NCBI RefSeq assembly: GCF_018398875.1
Contig: NZ_JAGWDK010000014.1
Location: 1 to 64,000 of the forward strand
Source: Bradyrhizobium sp. sGM-13
Lineage (GTDB): Bacteria; Pseudomonadota; Alphaproteobacteria; Rhizobiales; Xanthobacteraceae
Reading direction: 5' to 3'
DNA length: 64,000 bases
In this document: piece by piece, positions 20,160-25,129 of the stretch
How positions within the stretch are numbered: the first letter of the stretch is position 1
Layout of the letters: the number at the start of each line of letters is the position of its first letter
Notes under the pieces: model-generated
Told to the model about the DNA's origin: nothing
The model's input: the letters and a program-made list of their open reading frames with translations, nothing else
Database searches by the model: none
Made by a program: the position numbers and the translations under genes

Positions 20160-21080
20160 ATGAACCAGCCGACCAGCGGCGGCGATGCTCCAGCCCAAAA
20201 GCCTGACGCGAAGCCGGCTCTGCTTGGGGTCGCGTGCGGCGTGGGTGCGGCGCTGTTCTGGGCGCTCGGCTTTGTCGCGACCCGGCACGGGCTGAAGGTC
20301 GGCTTCACGCCGCCGGACCTGCTGATGCACCGCTTCGTGTGGTCCGGGCTGGTGTTCCTGCCGCTCGTGCTTCGCGCCGGCATCGGCAATCTCAGCGGCA
20401 TCGGATGGGGCCGCGGACTGGTGCTGATGGTGCTGGGCGGGCCTGTGATGTCGCTCATCAGCTATACCGGCTTCCTGTTCGTGCCGCTCGGCCATGGCAG
20501 CGTCATCCAGCCTTCCAGCGCGACGCTCGGCGGCCTGCTGCTGGCCGCGGTGTTCTTGCGCGAGCGGGTTCCGCCCTCGCGCGTGCTGGGGGCGCTCGTC
20601 ATCATCGGCGGGCTTGCGGTGATCGGCGCCGAGTCGATCGGGCATATCGGCGCCGATGGCGTGCTGGGCGATCTGCTGTTCGTGATGACCGGATTGATGT
20701 TCGCCGTGTTCGGCACGCTGCTGCGCCATTGGCGCGTCTCGGCGTTCTCGGCCGCCACCGTCATCAGCGTGGTGTCGCTGGCGCTGCTGCCGCTCTATGC
20801 GGCCTTTGGCGGGTTCGCGCGCGTGGCGGCGCTGGGCCTTGGCGAAAACGCGCTGCAGGCGCTGGCACAAGGCATCCTGGCCGGCCCCGCCGCGCTGTAT
20901 CTGTTCGCATTCTCGGTCCAGACCATCGGCGTCGCCCGCGCCGCGGTGTTTCCCGCGACTGTGCCGGCGCTGACGATCCTCGCCGGCTGGCTCCTGCTCG
21001 GCGAGCCCCCGACCGCGCTGCAGGCGGCGGGACTGGTCACGGTGCTGTTTGGATTCTATCTGGCGCAGAGGCAGCGGTGA
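20160..21080 (+). CDS. EamA-family (DMT) transporter
   Basis: 306 aa with about ten TM helices in two repeated EamA halves. The first starts ALLGVACGVGAALFWALGFVATRHGL; the second starts near GVLGDLLFVMTGLMFAVFGTLLRHW. The conserved end of the second half is ALTILAGWLLLGEPPTALQAAGLVTVLFGFYLA. It is probably an inner-membrane exporter of metabolites or amino acids; the substrate cannot be read from sequence. Its last 80 bp recur at 22472-22551 between REP-like motifs. Confidence 0.85.
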   Translation: MNQPTSGGDAPAQKPDAKPALLGVACGVGAALFWALGFVATRHGLKVGFTPPDLLMHRFVWSGLVFLPLVLRAGIGNLSGIGWGRGLVLMVLGGPVMSLISYTGFLFVPLGHGSVIQPSSATLGGLLLAAVFLRERVPPSRVLGALVIIGGLAVIGAESIGHIGADGVLGDLLFVMTGLMFAVFGTLLRHWRVSAFSAATVISVVSLALLPLYAAFGGFARVAALGLGENALQALAQGILAGPAALYLFAFSVQTIGVARAAVFPATVPALTILAGWLLLGEPPTALQAAGLVTVLFGFYLAQRQR

Positions 21081-21106
21081 GGTGTGTCATCGGCCGTGCC
21101 GTCATC

Positions 21107-21173
21107 AATTACGGTGACAGTGCACTAAACAGCACTTCGCCGTCGGCAGATTAAGTGCACTGTCACCGTAATT
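21107..21173. repeat. REP-like inverted repeat, copy A
   Basis: The left arm AATTACGGTGACAGTGCACT and right arm AGTGCACTGTCACCGTAATT are exact reverse complements, around a 26-27 nt centre. It sits 26 nt after the EamA stop. The same arms recur at 22451-22470 and 22553-22612. Confidence 0.8.
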
Positions 21174-21205
21174 GTGTCACCCGTAATTCCAGCCCGCGCG
21201 CCTCG

Positions 21206-21349
21206 TCAGCGATTGAGTGACAGGGTCGGCGCAATGGTTGCGGAGTCGTCGTTTTGCAGATCACTGACCAGCACATAACCGCCAAACAGGATGACGGCCA
21301 GCAAGCCATAGACAAGATAGGAACGCCGTCCGGATCTCTGACCGCTCAT
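21206..21349 (-). CDS. 47-aa single-TM protein
   Basis: From the ATG at 21349: a basic N-terminus (MSGQRSGRRS), one TM helix (YLVYGLLAVILFGGYVLVSDL) and a short polar C-terminus. It is 34 nt downstream of the gene at 21384-21755 on the same strand and may be co-transcribed with it. Function unknown. Confidence 0.5.
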   Translation of the reverse strand: MSGQRSGRRSYLVYGLLAVILFGGYVLVSDLQNDDSATIAPTLSLNR

Positions 21350-21383
21350 TTCGCTGCAATCCGTGTCTTGGCGAACCGGCCGC

Positions 21384-21755
21384 TCAGCTCTTTGTGGCCG
21401 TCTTGGAGAGCTCGGTTTCCACGCCGGCTGCGCAGGCCCTGGCGAATGAATAGTCCATGCTCGTGGAGGCAACGGTCTTGACGTATTCGCTGATGACGTT
21501 CTCCTTTGAATAGGGGCCCGCCGCCTTGAACTTGGCGACGGCGCCGTCGGCCGCCGTGAACTGCGCGACGCAGATCGGGACCAGGACAGACATCCGGCCG
21601 TTGCTCTCTGCCATGGCGCTCATGGTCTTGGCAGTGCCGCCGGTGACCCAGCCGCCCCACATGAATCCGATCGCCATCGCCGCAACAGCGCCGAACGCGA
21701 TACCTTGGAGAAAACGGGTTCGCGCCTCACCTTGCAAAATGTCGGGCATTCTCAT
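21384..21755 (-). CDS. Hypothetical single-TM exported-domain protein
   Basis: 123 aa from the ATG at 21755 (GGGAG upstream). One TM helix (FLQGIAFGAVAAMAIGFMWGGWV, residues 15-37), then a domain facing the periplasm (SVLVPICVAQFTAADGAVAKFKAAGPYSKENVISEYVKT...) with two cysteines. A conserved-looking alphaproteobacterial protein, but no named family comes to mind. Confidence 0.65.
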   Translation of the reverse strand: MRMPDILQGEARTRFLQGIAFGAVAAMAIGFMWGGWVTGGTAKTMSAMAESNGRMSVLVPICVAQFTAADGAVAKFKAAGPYSKENVISEYVKTVASTSMDYSFARACAAGVETELSKTATKS

Positions 21756-22029
21756 GATGGTCTCCCTTGTTGTTGTTTGCGCGCACGAGCGCGTTCGCAG
21801 CCGCAGGACGCCGCGTCCGCGCTTGGCAAAAACATTCAGCCTATTGAGATTGCGCCTTCCGATGGCACGCAAGCTGCCGCTACGAGGACGAGCAGCGACT
21901 TCGGACGTCACCGCTTCATGGACAGCTTCAAGGCGAACAACTGTACCTTGTCGTTCAACGGTAGACCCTTGGCGTGATGCTGTACAGCACGTTCTTGGTC
22001 TCTAGTCAGAAGGTCGTAAGTGTTTCGTT

Positions 22030-22290
22030 TCAGAAATTTGCGGCGACCAGATCGTAAGAGCCGCGGCTGCCACGGACGTAAACCTTCGCAGCCGCCGCAC
22101 ATATCACATCACGGTTGCAATCGAACGCGTCCAGTAAGCCGGACTCGTCGGGGCGGGCATCTGGTTGAATTCGCCTCAATGCGCCTTCGTCGATGAAGAA
22201 TGACGCTTCCAGCGCGCTGTCGTGTCCCCAAAACCGCACGGCTCGCCGGGTTTGGTCATATGAACGGCTATGATTTGGAAATTCGATCAT
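22030..22290 (-). CDS. DUF1488-family protein
   Basis: 86 aa. MIEFPNHSRSYDQTRRAVRFWGHDSALEASFFIDEGALRRIQ... is the typical DUF1488 pattern (xRxVRFWGHDxxxExxFxV), ending VYVRGSRGSYDLVAANF. It is a small soluble protein of unknown function, common in rhizobia, with no visible operon partner. Confidence 0.8.
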   Translation of the reverse strand: MIEFPNHSRSYDQTRRAVRFWGHDSALEASFFIDEGALRRIQPDARPDESGLLDAFDCNRDVICAAAAKVYVRGSRGSYDLVAANF

Positions 22291-22450
22291 GGGTTGCCAC
22301 CGATCAGATTATCAGCCGCCGCGTCTCACCAGCTTTCTCACGACCTCTGTCGAGGCCTGATTCAATGGCCTCGAGACCCCGCCCATCGAAGCGACGTGCG
22401 TTTGGTCAATGTCGTTGACGAGATTTGGCGTGGGCTAAGCTTCGGAATTG

Positions 22451-22470
22451 AGTGCACTGTCACCGTAATT
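22451..22470. repeat. Single REP-like arm
   Basis: AGTGCACTGTCACCGTAATT, identical to the right arm of the 21107-21173 element. It directly precedes the duplicated EamA tail, so that fragment is bounded by REP sequence on both sides. Confidence 0.8.
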
Positions 22471-22471
22471 C

Positions 22472-22551
22472 GCGAGCTTCCGACCGCGTTGCAGGCAGCG
22501 GGACTGGTCACGGTGCTGTTCGGATTCTATCTGGCGCAAAGGCAGCGGTGA
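22472..22551 (+). pseudogene. Duplicated 3' end of EamA transporter gene
   Basis: 80 bp matching 21001-21080 (the last 26 codons plus stop of the EamA gene) with 6 mismatches by eye. The frame is intact: ELPTALQAAGLVTVLFGFYLAQRQR then TGA. Four of the six differences are in third codon positions, as if the source copy diverged under coding constraint. There is no start or upstream part of the gene, so it is a remnant. Confidence 0.85.
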
Positions 22552-22552
22552 T

Positions 22553-22612
22553 GATTAGGTGACAGTGCACTAAACTGCACTTCGCCAATTTAAGTGCACT
22601 GTCACCGTAATC
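22553..22612. repeat. REP-like inverted repeat, copy B
   Basis: Arms GATTAGGTGACAGTGCACTAAA and TTTAAGTGCACTGTCACCGTAATC, with a shorter and divergent centre than copy A. It follows the duplicated EamA tail exactly as copy A follows the intact gene, so tail and repeat were probably copied together. Confidence 0.8.
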
Positions 22613-22734
22613 CCAGTAGCTGGAAGCGACCAATGAAAGACGTTGGCAGCTGGCGCTGCCAAAAATTGCTTTGCGGCCTTGACGATCGGCCGGCTAATGG
22701 GTGTCACCGCAATCTCTAGATTGGTCTCGGGAAT

Positions 22735-23247
22735 TCATCGCGAGAACTCGTGAGTGACGGAAAGATAGGGGCCGAATAGCTCGTCGATACGCTTGTAGAA
22801 ATTTTCAAGCTGATTGAAATGCTCTCGTCGCCTTGCCAAAATTGCGGCGCGATCGGATGGGATCAAGTGCGGTTCCTTCAGTTCCTTGTTACAAACGTCC
22901 AAATCCAGTGCGTGATTATACAGGCTGTCCAAGTATTTTCTAATGTTAGGCCCAAATAACCAGCGGGCAGCATCTATCCCTTCCAATAAGTCTGCTTCGA
23001 TCGCCGGGTCCGACGCCCCGTGAGAGATGATTTTTGCAATCGCCCGACGAACCGTCGAGAATGTCTCCAAGCGACGCTGAAACAAATCGAGTGCCAATTT
23101 GTCTTGGGCGATGTCAGCTTGCCGCTTTGACATCTTCGCCTGGTACAAACCGAACGCAATCGCAACACCGGCAGCCGTCAGAGCTGCCAAAACAGTTGCC
23201 GCTGGTCCGGCGAGTTTAGCTATCAAATCGACAGTACTGGCAGCCAT
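22735..23247 (-). CDS. Hypothetical membrane-anchored helical protein
   Basis: 170 aa. An N-terminal TM helix (GPAATVLAALTAAGVAIAFGLYQ, about 14-36) is followed by a helical cytoplasmic domain. KLALDLFQRRLETFSTVRRAI and AARWLFGPNIRKYLDSLYNHAL match a pattern I associate with a widespread, uncharacterised family (x-DLFxxRxxxxxxxR ... xxFLFGxxIxxYL). Base composition appears less GC-rich than flanking housekeeping genes. It is 139 nt downstream of the 453-aa gene and could be co-transcribed. Confidence 0.7.
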   Translation of the reverse strand: MAASTVDLIAKLAGPAATVLAALTAAGVAIAFGLYQAKMSKRQADIAQDKLALDLFQRRLETFSTVRRAIAKIISHGASDPAIEADLLEGIDAARWLFGPNIRKYLDSLYNHALDLDVCNKELKEPHLIPSDRAAILARRREHFNQLENFYKRIDELFGPYLSVTHEFSR

Positions 23248-23386
23248 CGGGTAGTCTCGTCGGTGAGATCAGGTTGCGGTGATCAGCGCGAGGGCTTTCT
23301 GTGTAGTGAATTCGATATACATCAGGCAGCGAATAGGCGGCTTGAACCGAGGTGGCGGACTTGGCTGCGTTAATCCGCCGTCCGAG

Positions 23387-24748
23387 CTAAGCCTTGGCTT
23401 CTTTTATCCAATAATCGTATTGAGCTTTGGACTGCGTCGGCACGCTGGCTGCTGAAATGAGCGTCACCAGCTGCGCGAACCGCTTTCTACAACTTGTTTG
23501 GTTCTTTATTCGGTTTCCGACGACTGTGCTGGGCAACGATCCAAAGTTGAGCAGTATTCCAACTTCGCTGGGCGAGAACGATTTTATCATTTTTTCGTAC
23601 GACGGCATTGCCGCGTTTGAAACACCCCAAGGGTTCCCCACCGCACACGTCGTGACAGCTTCCACTACCGAATATTGTGCGCTCGCTGGAATTTGATTCT
23701 GTTCAGAAATTTGCCGTAAGCGTTGTGCAAACGGCGGTTCGTTGTAGAAGTTGTTCATCGCGTTGTGCACAGCGAGTAGATTTGCGCTGGCCGTTGTGAA
23801 AATCAAATGAAGTTCCGAATCGCCGAGCAGCGACAACAGGCCTAGTTTTTCGAAGAACTGTGATGACGCTTTGCTGCGCTTCTCGTCGCCTCTCGCCTTG
23901 TATTCTTGATGCCGATCAATCAGTTCGGATTTGGAGTTAGGTGAAAGAGCGCCTTTGAACGGTTCGCAAATCGCCAACGAATTCACACGAGCCTGTTCGC
24001 CAGACGTAGGATCGCAATAGATGCCATGCAACATTTTGAACAACGCCTCGCGCTGCGCATCGAAGGTATCCGACAGGCGAGTGACCCAAAGTGTTATCTG
24101 CTCCTGAGAAAAGCTAGACGCCTTGATCGCCGTGATGAAGCCTTGAATGTCTACACCGCGAGGATTTTTCTCGTTCGTGAGAGCATGATTTCCGCATCGG
24201 CTGAGAAAATTGAGGAATTCGTATTCGTCAAGTGCGCCCTTGGTAGGATGTGCAGCAGAAAAATTATTCCTGATGTCTCGGTTTTGATCGAGCAGAAAGA
24301 ATCCATCTTCGGTAATGAGATTCAATTTCAAACATAAACTGAGAAGCTCTGCGTCTTTCAGATCAACGAGCGCGGCTTCGTCGAAGTCTTTGTCGATTAC
24401 CTGAGGAACGACCGCCAAACCAAAGCTTCGTACTTTGTTCCTGAGTTCTATGACGGCCGCGTTCCAGGCGTAGTTGATGGCACCATCGAAAAGTCCGGCT
24501 GCCACAGCAACGCACATTCGGACAATTGTTTCACTGCGATGTTCTGGTGGTATCTTCTCGATCAAGCGCGGTAGATTGCTCCAAACGTGGGCGATCTGAT
24601 CGTCGGCTGGCAGTATCCCTCTCTCCACGCCCAACGCCTTCGTAACCGCTTCCAGCATCGGAACTGAGTTCGGCGCAATATCCGGCAGCGCAATTGCTGT
24701 CTTCATGCCCTTCATAGGAAGTGCCATTCCCTTTATAGGAAGTGCCAT
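23387..24748 (-). CDS. Large accessory protein with HEPN-like R-x6-H motif
   Basis: 453 aa, soluble, mostly helical, no known family recognised. RDIRNNFSAAHP contains R160-x6-H167, the R-x(4-6)-H arrangement typical of HEPN ribonucleases and Abi-C type proteins; a preceding helix (LSLCLKLNLITEDGFFLLDQNRDI) fits that context. HEPN assignment is inference from the motif alone. The start is ambiguous: a 21-bp tandem duplication gives in-frame ATGs at 24748, 24727 and 24706. GC content looks lower than in neighbours, suggesting acquired DNA. Confidence 0.7.
   Translation of the reverse strand: MALPIKGMALPMKGMKTAIALPDIAPNSVPMLEAVTKALGVERGILPADDQIAHVWSNLPRLIEKIPPEHRSETIVRMCVAVAAGLFDGAINYAWNAAVIELRNKVRSFGLAVVPQVIDKDFDEAALVDLKDAELLSLCLKLNLITEDGFFLLDQNRDIRNNFSAAHPTKGALDEYEFLNFLSRCGNHALTNEKNPRGVDIQGFITAIKASSFSQEQITLWVTRLSDTFDAQREALFKMLHGIYCDPTSGEQARVNSLAICEPFKGALSPNSKSELIDRHQEYKARGDEKRSKASSQFFEKLGLLSLLGDSELHLIFTTASANLLAVHNAMNNFYNEPPFAQRLRQISEQNQIPASAQYSVVEAVTTCAVGNPWGVSNAAMPSYEKMIKSFSPSEVGILLNFGSLPSTVVGNRIKNQTSCRKRFAQLVTLISAASVPTQSKAQYDYWIKEAKA
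24707..24748 (-). repeat. 21-bp tandem duplication at a start codon
   Basis: Two adjacent 21-bp units, each beginning ATGGCACTTCCTAT and ending in AAGGG plus one base, encode MALPIKG and MALPMKG. A third in-frame ATG follows at 24706. The repeat lies at the N-terminus of the 453-aa gene. Confidence 0.85.
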
Positions 24749-25075
24749 TGTGTAACCTCGATCGCAAGTTTGGACGGGCGCAGCCTGAGCAGAACACCGA
24801 CATTGCGATGTTCGCCCTGCTTGGTGACGTTCACATTTATAAGATTAGTAGTCGCGCAATTGCAACTTTTGCAAGTGCTTTGATGATTGTTATTTGGGCT
24901 GATGGCCCGTGAGGGCGAAGAGCCGTTCTATAAATTGCCTGACTTCGTTCCGGATATCCTCGTCCAAAAGGGACAGCGTGGCGAGTACTCCGCCCCAGCT
25001 CTTCGCTCGTAGATACTTGTTTTGAACAAAAGCTGACTGGATTCCGATAATCCGCAATGGGGTTTCTGCGGAGCG
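24749..25075. other. Intergenic stretch, no gene supported
   Basis: 327 nt of lower-GC DNA upstream of the 453-aa gene. It should contain that gene's promoter. TTTATAAGATTAGTAG near 24837 is AT-rich, but no clear promoter can be assigned. No coding frame is convincing. Confidence 0.4.
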
Positions 25076-25104
25076 TAGAAAAGGCCGCTATTTAAAGCGG
25101 CCTT
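25076..25104 (-). terminator. Rho-independent terminator of nrdJ
   Basis: On the minus strand AAGGCCGC-TTTAAATA-GCGGCCTT is followed by TTCT. It lies 25 nt after the nrdJ stop. Confidence 0.75.
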
Positions 25105-25129
25105 CCCGTTCCGTCGATCTGTCAATAGC

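Follow-up and report, generated by a model that had tools for sequence, protein, structure and literature searches.

A solo gene of Bradyrhizobium sp. sGM-13 encodes a predicted HEPN and ARM/HEAT-like protein of an apparently undescribed family with a plausible role in phage defence

The HEPN superfamily is characterized by an Rx4-6H motif with a six-residue spacer in some families and mostly N, D or H after the R, and by an additional conserved acidic residue, typically within Ex3[KR] (PMC3710099). AbiJ, AbiU2, AbiV and other abortive-infection (Abi) families described there carry an extra domain beside the HEPN domain in some cases, and some are encoded in operons with restriction-modification (R-M) systems. 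Single-protein systems have also been reported. Tha, a 301-aa defence protein of a Staphylococcus aureus prophage, is described as a proposed abortive RNase with a C-terminal HEPN domain, an Rx4H motif, a trigger in tail proteins and inhibitor proteins called Ith (PMC11087260), and DS-11 of DefensePredictor as a one-protein HEPN defence system with a regulatory CBS domain (PMC13092281). Here we analyzed a stretch of 64,000 nucleotides (nt) from Bradyrhizobium sp. sGM-13 (contig NZ_JAGWDK010000014.1, positions 1 to 64,000; hereafter the window), in which a gene on the minus strand (23387..24748) encodes a 453-aa protein with a predicted N-terminal HEPN domain and an ARM/HEAT-like C-terminus. 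We consider it fairly probable that this protein is a horizontally acquired single-gene abortive-infection ribonuclease, made up of a HEPN cutter and an ARM/HEAT-like sensor or lock.

For the N-terminal part of the protein, a HEPN fold is predicted with high confidence at residues 67-196 (24161..24550, minus strand). The model of residues 24-200 had a predicted local distance difference test score (pLDDT) of 90.8 and a predicted template modelling score (pTM) of 0.86, and the whole-protein model had values of 89.2 and 0.69, respectively. When the domain was ranked against the PDB with VIA-align, HEPN structures came first: the top 13 entries were HEPN/HepT or nucleotidyltransferase-associated domains (Z 7.9-10.9; root-mean-square deviation (rmsd) 2.5-4.0 over 104-115 residues), with 2hsb as the best (Z 10.9, rmsd 2.5 over 110 residues) and 2jpu, 2q00, 1wwp, 1ufb and 7bxo, which we take to be domains of these kinds, among them. 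The same list held HepT/HEPN toxins (Z 7.4-9.6), Csm6 (Z 6.3-7.5) and MtlR (Z 7.7-7.8), as well as 3c8g, presumably MtlR-like. A generic helical bundle was weighed as an alternative; apart from MtlR-type rows, the unrelated helical proteins in the list run from Z 6.7 down. Foldseek of the whole model against the PDB and BFVD found no match at E <= 0.001, a search of the PDB with the sequence of the whole protein found nothing, and a HEPN-domain profile retrieved from the PDB only two chance-level chains (E 0.48). A further link came from profiles. PHROG 27609, which matches the 453-aa protein, also reaches an otherwise different protein without a Pfam name (L008, E 3.2e-6), the C-terminus of which carries RNGCGHPN (Rx4H), aligned by hhalign in register with RNNFSAAHP of the 453-aa protein (E 1.3e-4, probability 53%). 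Because the Foldseek and PDB sequence searches gave no significant match, the assignment of the HEPN fold depends on three results: the ranking by VIA-align, the motif and this profile link.

An earlier note on this DNA had pointed out an R-x6-H motif fitting HEPN domains. Indeed, RNNFSAAHP is present as the predicted ribonuclease motif R160-N-N-F-S-A-A-H167-P168 (24245..24271, minus strand), with six residues separating R and H, and R160-N161-x5-H167 agrees with the HEPN rule in its spacing and in the polar residue after R. Taken alone, R-x(4-6)-H is no better than chance: 69% of 2000 shuffles of the 453-aa protein contain it, and 12% contain R[NDH]-x(3-5)-H. What counts is conservation. Each of R160, N161, H167 and P168 is conserved in 111 of the 115 rows aligned, and D88 is nearly invariant (112 of 115). 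The collection scans were partly seeded with this motif; among the 28 rows not matching the search seed, 24 keep R, N and H, three lack them (L116-L118) and one is a fragment. Moreover, searches with the whole protein or a profile yielded 13 aligned rows, all of which keep R and H, and one further row (L007), which is without them. Both things that the earlier note had proposed to look for, a HEPN-like bundle around R160-H167 and conservation of the motif in homologues, were thus found, the former in the predicted model. These counts also bear on the alternative that the HEPN domain is a binding or regulatory module without nuclease activity, comparable to MtlR or nucleotidyltransferase-associated HEPN domains. 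MtlR structures are indeed among the folds ranked (3brj, Z 7.7; 6kcr, Z 7.8), and a sister branch of the family persists despite the loss of R, N and H. However, retention of R, N, H and P in almost all rows is as expected for an active site, and we regard a purely binding role as quite unlikely.

Residues 199-453 (23390..24154, minus strand) are modelled as a domain that is helical throughout save two short bridges. ARM/HEAT proteins dominate the VIA-align list for this part with Z up to 9.6, a level common for helical repeats and lower than what the tool counts as decisive for them, and the top three rows have an rmsd of 3.4-7.0 over 115-228 residues. We therefore use ARM/HEAT-like to describe an arrangement that the domain appears to resemble and that is common, with no claim of homology. 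Aquarius_N_1st, which we take to be an ARM-type domain, was weakly matched in 8 of 52 family members (best E 0.0012). The domain contains two conserved blocks, N333-F-Y-N-E337-P338 (23735..23752, minus strand), in which N333, F334 and E337 are the most conserved residues of the whole protein (each in 114 of 115 rows), and G371-N-x-x-G375 (23624..23638, minus strand), in which G371, N372 and G375 are kept in 111, 108 and 112 of the 115 rows, respectively. We propose that this domain may be the sensing or regulatory part of the protein.

Compared with the described systems, the 453-aa protein shares with Tha the plan of a single HEPN effector found on prophages and the polar N after the catalytic R (R265-N...H270 in Tha), but differs in its N-terminal HEPN domain, its Rx6H spacing and its ARM/HEAT-like C-terminus of 255 residues, as judged from the description of Tha (PMC11087260). 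It differs from the HEPN Abi families in domain order and C-terminal module and matches no Pfam model, and from DS-11, again by description, in having an ARM/HEAT-like instead of a CBS regulatory part (PMC13092281). The HEPN systems of PMC9519451, PMC13092281 and PMC9122126 were likewise considered by their descriptions. HepT/HEPN toxins of the HEPN-MNT (type VII toxin-antitoxin) systems are among the closest folds (5yep, 6m6u and 7bxo; Z 9.0-9.6, rmsd 3.1-3.5 over 112-115 residues), but the 453-aa protein is much larger. The 16 largest clusters of neighbours at 92 family loci include no MNT nucleotidyltransferase antitoxin, and the same-strand neighbour in the window, a 170-aa protein, has no match in Pfam. 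On one plasmid a nucleotidyltransferase gene lies 0.75 kb from the family gene, on the opposite strand.

At E up to 1 the 453-aa protein had no family in Pfam or PADLOC-DB 2.0.0, and no model of NCBIfam came near its cut-off; blaOXA-576 (NCBIfam E 0.18) was far under the cut-off and was disregarded. By contrast with these searches, PHROG 27609, annotated as of unknown function, matched over residues 75-451 (E 6.7e-44), and it is the family of the protein, large and apparently undescribed. For PHROG 27609 itself no described role was found. When 52 family members were searched, PADLOC gave 2 isolated weak matches (best E 0.018) and Pfam no Abi model among the matches listed (25 of 32 families). 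The text searches of the literature, outside which supplements lay, turned up no paper recognisable as describing the family.

Across several phyla the family gene occurs as a solo gene, be it on plasmids, in prophages or on chromosomes. Relatives are carried by 77 plasmid records, of which 65 cover at least 80% of the protein and 48 are typed conjugative; those of Rhizobium, Sinorhizobium and Sphingopyxis are 52-53% identical, and others come from Lactococcus, Listeria, Bacillus, Acinetobacter, Escherichia, Klebsiella and Streptomyces. In genomes, 257 loci were confirmed and the best 80 retained, and 21 viral contigs carry the family; searches of the phage collection with three family members found no match. 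In Escherichia coli the family occurs in 54 of 5426 complete genomes, with 34 places chromosomal and 20 on plasmids. Bradyrhizobium sp. WSM3983 and Rhodopseudomonas palustris have the closest kin, about 70% identical, and the PHROG 27609 profile found the family in 7 of 398 genomes across the phylum, the window's own genome counted. Among 60 genus members searched, the 453-aa gene was present in the window's own genome only. Because of this restriction, together with foreign codon usage and the variable spacer in which it lies (see below), the gene was probably acquired horizontally. A pN/pS (ratio of nonsynonymous to synonymous change) of 0.24-0.33 against five relatives, with synonymous sites saturated, indicates that it is under purifying selection. 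A housekeeping RNA-processing protein of unusual composition is a further reading, as HEPN domains occur in RNA processing too (PMC3710099). However, the gene is absent from the 59 other relatives searched, and the family occurs in 54 of the 5426 E. coli genomes, on plasmids, in a prophage and on viral contigs. Sporadic distribution and mobile context count against a housekeeping role, which we consider very unlikely.

The family tree had 27 class changes over 75 labelled rows of 21 classes, against a floor of 20 and with no shuffled control, and is therefore largely clade-structured. Transfer between phyla, suggested by the near-identical rows L075/L077 and L028/L029, was set aside, since each pair includes at least one metagenome bin that is possibly mis-binned. 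In a Gracilibacteria bin (L095) the family gene reads through 18 TGA codons, which would be accounted for if, as we presume, TGA is a sense codon in that lineage.

We examined 768 open reading frames (ORFs) within 4 kb of 92 family loci, three of which (L116-L118) belong to the motif-less branch; the 92 were drawn from 101 loci, nine having been dropped as fragments, disrupted, recoded or near-duplicates. No recurrent partner-like family was present among the 16 largest neighbour clusters. With a crude ORF caller, a same-strand ORF lay within 60 nt upstream in 16 of 86 loci and downstream in 13 of 84. By these counts the genes of the family are solo, with no conserved partner seen. The commonest neighbour family was a tyrosine recombinase (12 of 92 loci, L116 and L117 included), followed by two families at 4 loci each, one of them a Type I restriction methylase; these labels were assigned by us from sequence, except for the hsdS of L085, which was named by PADLOC. 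In four loci (L084, L085, L096 and L097) the family gene stands downstream of an hsdS-type gene on the same strand.

We also viewed annotated regions around nine plasmid matches (one unannotated) and six E. coli matches. One E. coli region has DRT3a/3b 1.7 kb from the family gene in a P4-like element, another has CBASS genes near it with an insertion sequence element between, beside a tRNA-Thr gene, and an E. coli plasmid has TrlF and DUF4297 genes 3-4 kb away. In a further E. coli region the family gene lies in a P2-like prophage between ogr and tail genes, and the Listeria copy has an AbiJ_NTD3/Abi_C gene 7 nt upstream. As a separate observation, in E. coli loci L017, L174, L175 and L179 the family gene follows genes for a BCCT transporter and a DUF2254 protein and precedes an integrase gene, a cassette that recurs on one plasmid and three chromosomes.

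Mobile surroundings of this kind raise the alternative that the protein is a HEPN ribonuclease serving the maintenance or competition of mobile elements, that is, an addiction or growth-control toxin with the ARM/HEAT-like part as a built-in antitoxin. It is consistent with the 77 plasmid records, 48 of them typed conjugative, with the recombinases near 12 of 92 loci, and with two plasmids, of which one has a PemK/MazF gene near the family gene and the other a MazEF-type pair about 3 kb off. However, among the neighbours of the 92 loci no conserved partner fit for an antitoxin was seen, and the R-M, DRT3, CBASS and AbiJ-type company fits defence at least equally well. We consider an element toxin unlikely, and a defence role is plausible from the gene neighbourhoods.

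In comparison with 106 controls, tyrosine recombinases were found at 12 of 92 target loci and 0 controls (p 7e-5), and any Type I R-M gene within 4 kb at 7 of 92 and 0 (p 0.004), which we count in favour of an abortive-infection ribonuclease. Several points weigh against this reading. The queries of that comparison were drawn from the target loci themselves (matches being counted at another locus only) and the controls from 26 of the host genomes. PADLOC applied to the five nearest ORFs gave no clear excess at 26 loci (130 proteins) over 26 controls (126 proteins); among the matches listed (25 of 129 target and 25 of 77 control families), restriction, TIR and mad8 stood on the target side and CRISPR, mad6 and PD-T4-6 on the control side. 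Two of the six E. coli regions viewed had no named defence system, and the window protein is unrecognised by PADLOC, Pfam and NCBIfam. As to the fold, the tool itself cautions that for helical bundles a Z near 10 (under ~13) is not decisive, and in a Foldseek search with the HEPN domain the HEPN chains lead, but with a best E of 0.57, which is not significant. Ex3[KR] is matched by E101-L-R-N-K105 in the window copy, but E101 varies among homologues. Finally, the literature text searches found no published activity, toxicity or phage assay of the family, although an unlabelled test in a supplement is possible.

What the computation gives is a predicted fold, a conserved motif, a foreign composition, mobile contexts, no conserved partner and company that is partly of defence genes. 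As for the activity, we infer that the N-terminal HEPN domain, with its intact R-N-x5-H active site, would be a metal-independent RNase acting as a dimer. The C-terminal ARM/HEAT-like superhelix, with invariant residues of its own, may keep the HEPN domain silent and may sense a phage-derived or infection-derived trigger. Once triggered, the HEPN domain would cleave tRNA or mRNA of the cell, and this cutting would lead to a growth stop and a block of phage production, that is, abortive infection.

The sister branch without the HEPN motif comprises L007, L116, L117 and L188, the plasmid copies L196 and L197, and the fused copy L118. All seven motif-less copies aligned keep the N, F and E of the C-terminal block (N333, F334 and E337). 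The six unfused copies each stand directly behind a gene for a protein of 339-359 aa (overlap or 1-nt gap), and these six upstream proteins have DGI, GGAR-x-RA and SQDG in common, close to their ends. Alignment of the 339-359-aa proteins with diadenylate cyclases (DAC) by hhalign was local (E 0.0034-0.008, with a probability of just 5-9%), in register over the DGA...GxRxRA motifs, and its score was reached by 0 of 60 column shuffles. The DAC-like proteins tried were unrecognised by Pfam and PADLOC, and their profile found in the PDB only a lipoprotein of another kind (E 0.079). The distant likeness to diadenylate cyclases is suggestive only, and the motif-less gene and the DAC-like gene possibly form an undescribed two-gene nucleotide-signalling conflict system. 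In L118, a viral contig, a caspase domain (PF00656, E 1.4e-13) precedes the family module in one fused protein, and the fusion lies beside a 1045-aa protein matching a SIR2-Argonaute model nearly end to end (L118:4054-9314). Near the motif-less copy of Vibrio are genes for restriction of the BsuBI/PstI type and for a methylase of the Eco57I type. The motif-less relatives thus appear to sit in conflict-type gene sets, which we count in favour of a defence role. A more tentative possibility is that the whole family is a new immunity scaffold, in which an ARM/HEAT-like sensor is coupled to a HEPN RNase and the motif-less form is re-used as an adaptor, in a DAC-like two-gene system and in a caspase fusion beside SIR2-Argonaute.

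In the window, the 453-aa gene is followed after 139 nt by the gene of the 170-aa protein (22735..23247, minus strand). The earlier note had described two same-strand genes at 22735-24748 in DNA less GC-rich than its surroundings, and both ORFs were found there on the minus strand. The 1-kb windows at 22000-25000 have a GC content of 49-54% and the surrounding ones 57-70%; GC is 0.50 for the 453-aa gene and 0.51 for the 170-aa gene, against 0.63 for the whole window, and GC at third codon positions is 0.55 and 0.56, against 0.85 for nrdJ and 0.87 for eamA. These data indicate that both are real genes, foreign in composition. The single transmembrane helix noted earlier for the 170-aa protein is borne out by one hydrophobic stretch at residues ~8-35 (hydropathy). 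This protein had no Pfam match, and MakA (NCBIfam E 0.042) was disregarded as far under the cut-off.

The same strand, the gap of 139 nt and the foreign composition of both genes would suit a two-gene module of a HEPN effector and a membrane-anchored 170-aa partner, as had been proposed. However, relatives of the 170-aa protein were near the family gene in no other locus examined. In tblastn against loci L001-L124, the 170-aa protein matched only the window copies (L001, L005 and L119) and L120, L121, L122 and L124, which had been fetched using the 170-aa protein itself; among the 768 neighbour ORFs its best match had an E of 0.80. Conserved linkage of the two genes was thus seen in 0 cases outside the window in the loci searched. 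Moreover, the two families are distributed independently among the 60 relatives, with 170-aa relatives in 4 of the 59 other genomes searched and the 453-aa family in 0, and on plasmids a weak 170-aa relative occurs in 8 records, 0 of them with 80% coverage. The 170-aa neighbour is probably a passenger and no conserved partner of the 453-aa gene, and a two-gene module is extremely unlikely. Of the undescribed defence module suggested earlier, defence thus stands as plausible, with no described role found, and the pairing of the two genes, including their expected co-occurrence in other neighbourhoods, fell away.

Both genes lie in a spacer between eamA and nrdJ (21173..25129, no strand assigned). 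For comparison, 15 stretches from relatives were fetched (L133-L147) and 12 compared with the window. The nrdJ end had some match in all 60 genus members, the window's genome included and one with only short weak matches, and the eamA stretch in 48 of 60, short repeat matches counted. The DNA at 21173-25129 was shared by 0 of the 12 relatives compared, short repeats and the copied eamA end aside (G031 being visible for 19.9 of ~21 kb). The spacer measures 1.0 kb in G001, 0.8 kb in G030, ~21 kb in G031 and 4.0 kb in the window, and its DNA differs among the relatives compared, as at a variable-cargo site in the genus. The REP-like (repetitive extragenic palindromic) repeats remarked on earlier beside the genes were found as a palindromic repeat at 21106-21174, which we label REP-like; additional arms lie at 22448-22470 and 22558-22612. 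A duplicate of the eamA-type gene's 3' end (21001-21080) lies 1.47 kb downstream at 22472-22551 (80 nt, 93%), and copies of the palindromic repeat stand behind both the original and the duplicate. This duplicate suggested an attachment-site duplication, but palindromic repeats accompany it and the suggestion was set aside, although no profile search for an integrase was made in the spacer. At the start of the 453-aa gene a 21-nt sequence is tandemly repeated (24704-24724 and 24725-24745, minus strand; repeat family D4, copies 90% alike), which yields several in-frame ATG codons (M1, M8, M12 and M15). The N-terminal stretch made by this duplication has no counterpart among the aligned homologues.

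HEPN effectors are well known, but in the literature text searches neither the combination of HEPN and ARM/HEAT-like domains nor the motif-less relatives were found described. If the abortive-infection reading is true, a family distributed over several phyla would be an unrecognised phage-defence effector, missed by the PADLOC models of 2023; the family is carried by 54 of the 5426 complete E. coli genomes and also by conjugative plasmids. Since it has members in E. coli, laboratory strains can be used to test the idea directly, and the sister branch without the motif would serve as a natural experiment for finding out what the C-terminal module senses. If the scaffold reading were also true, one sensor would be wired to three kinds of output.

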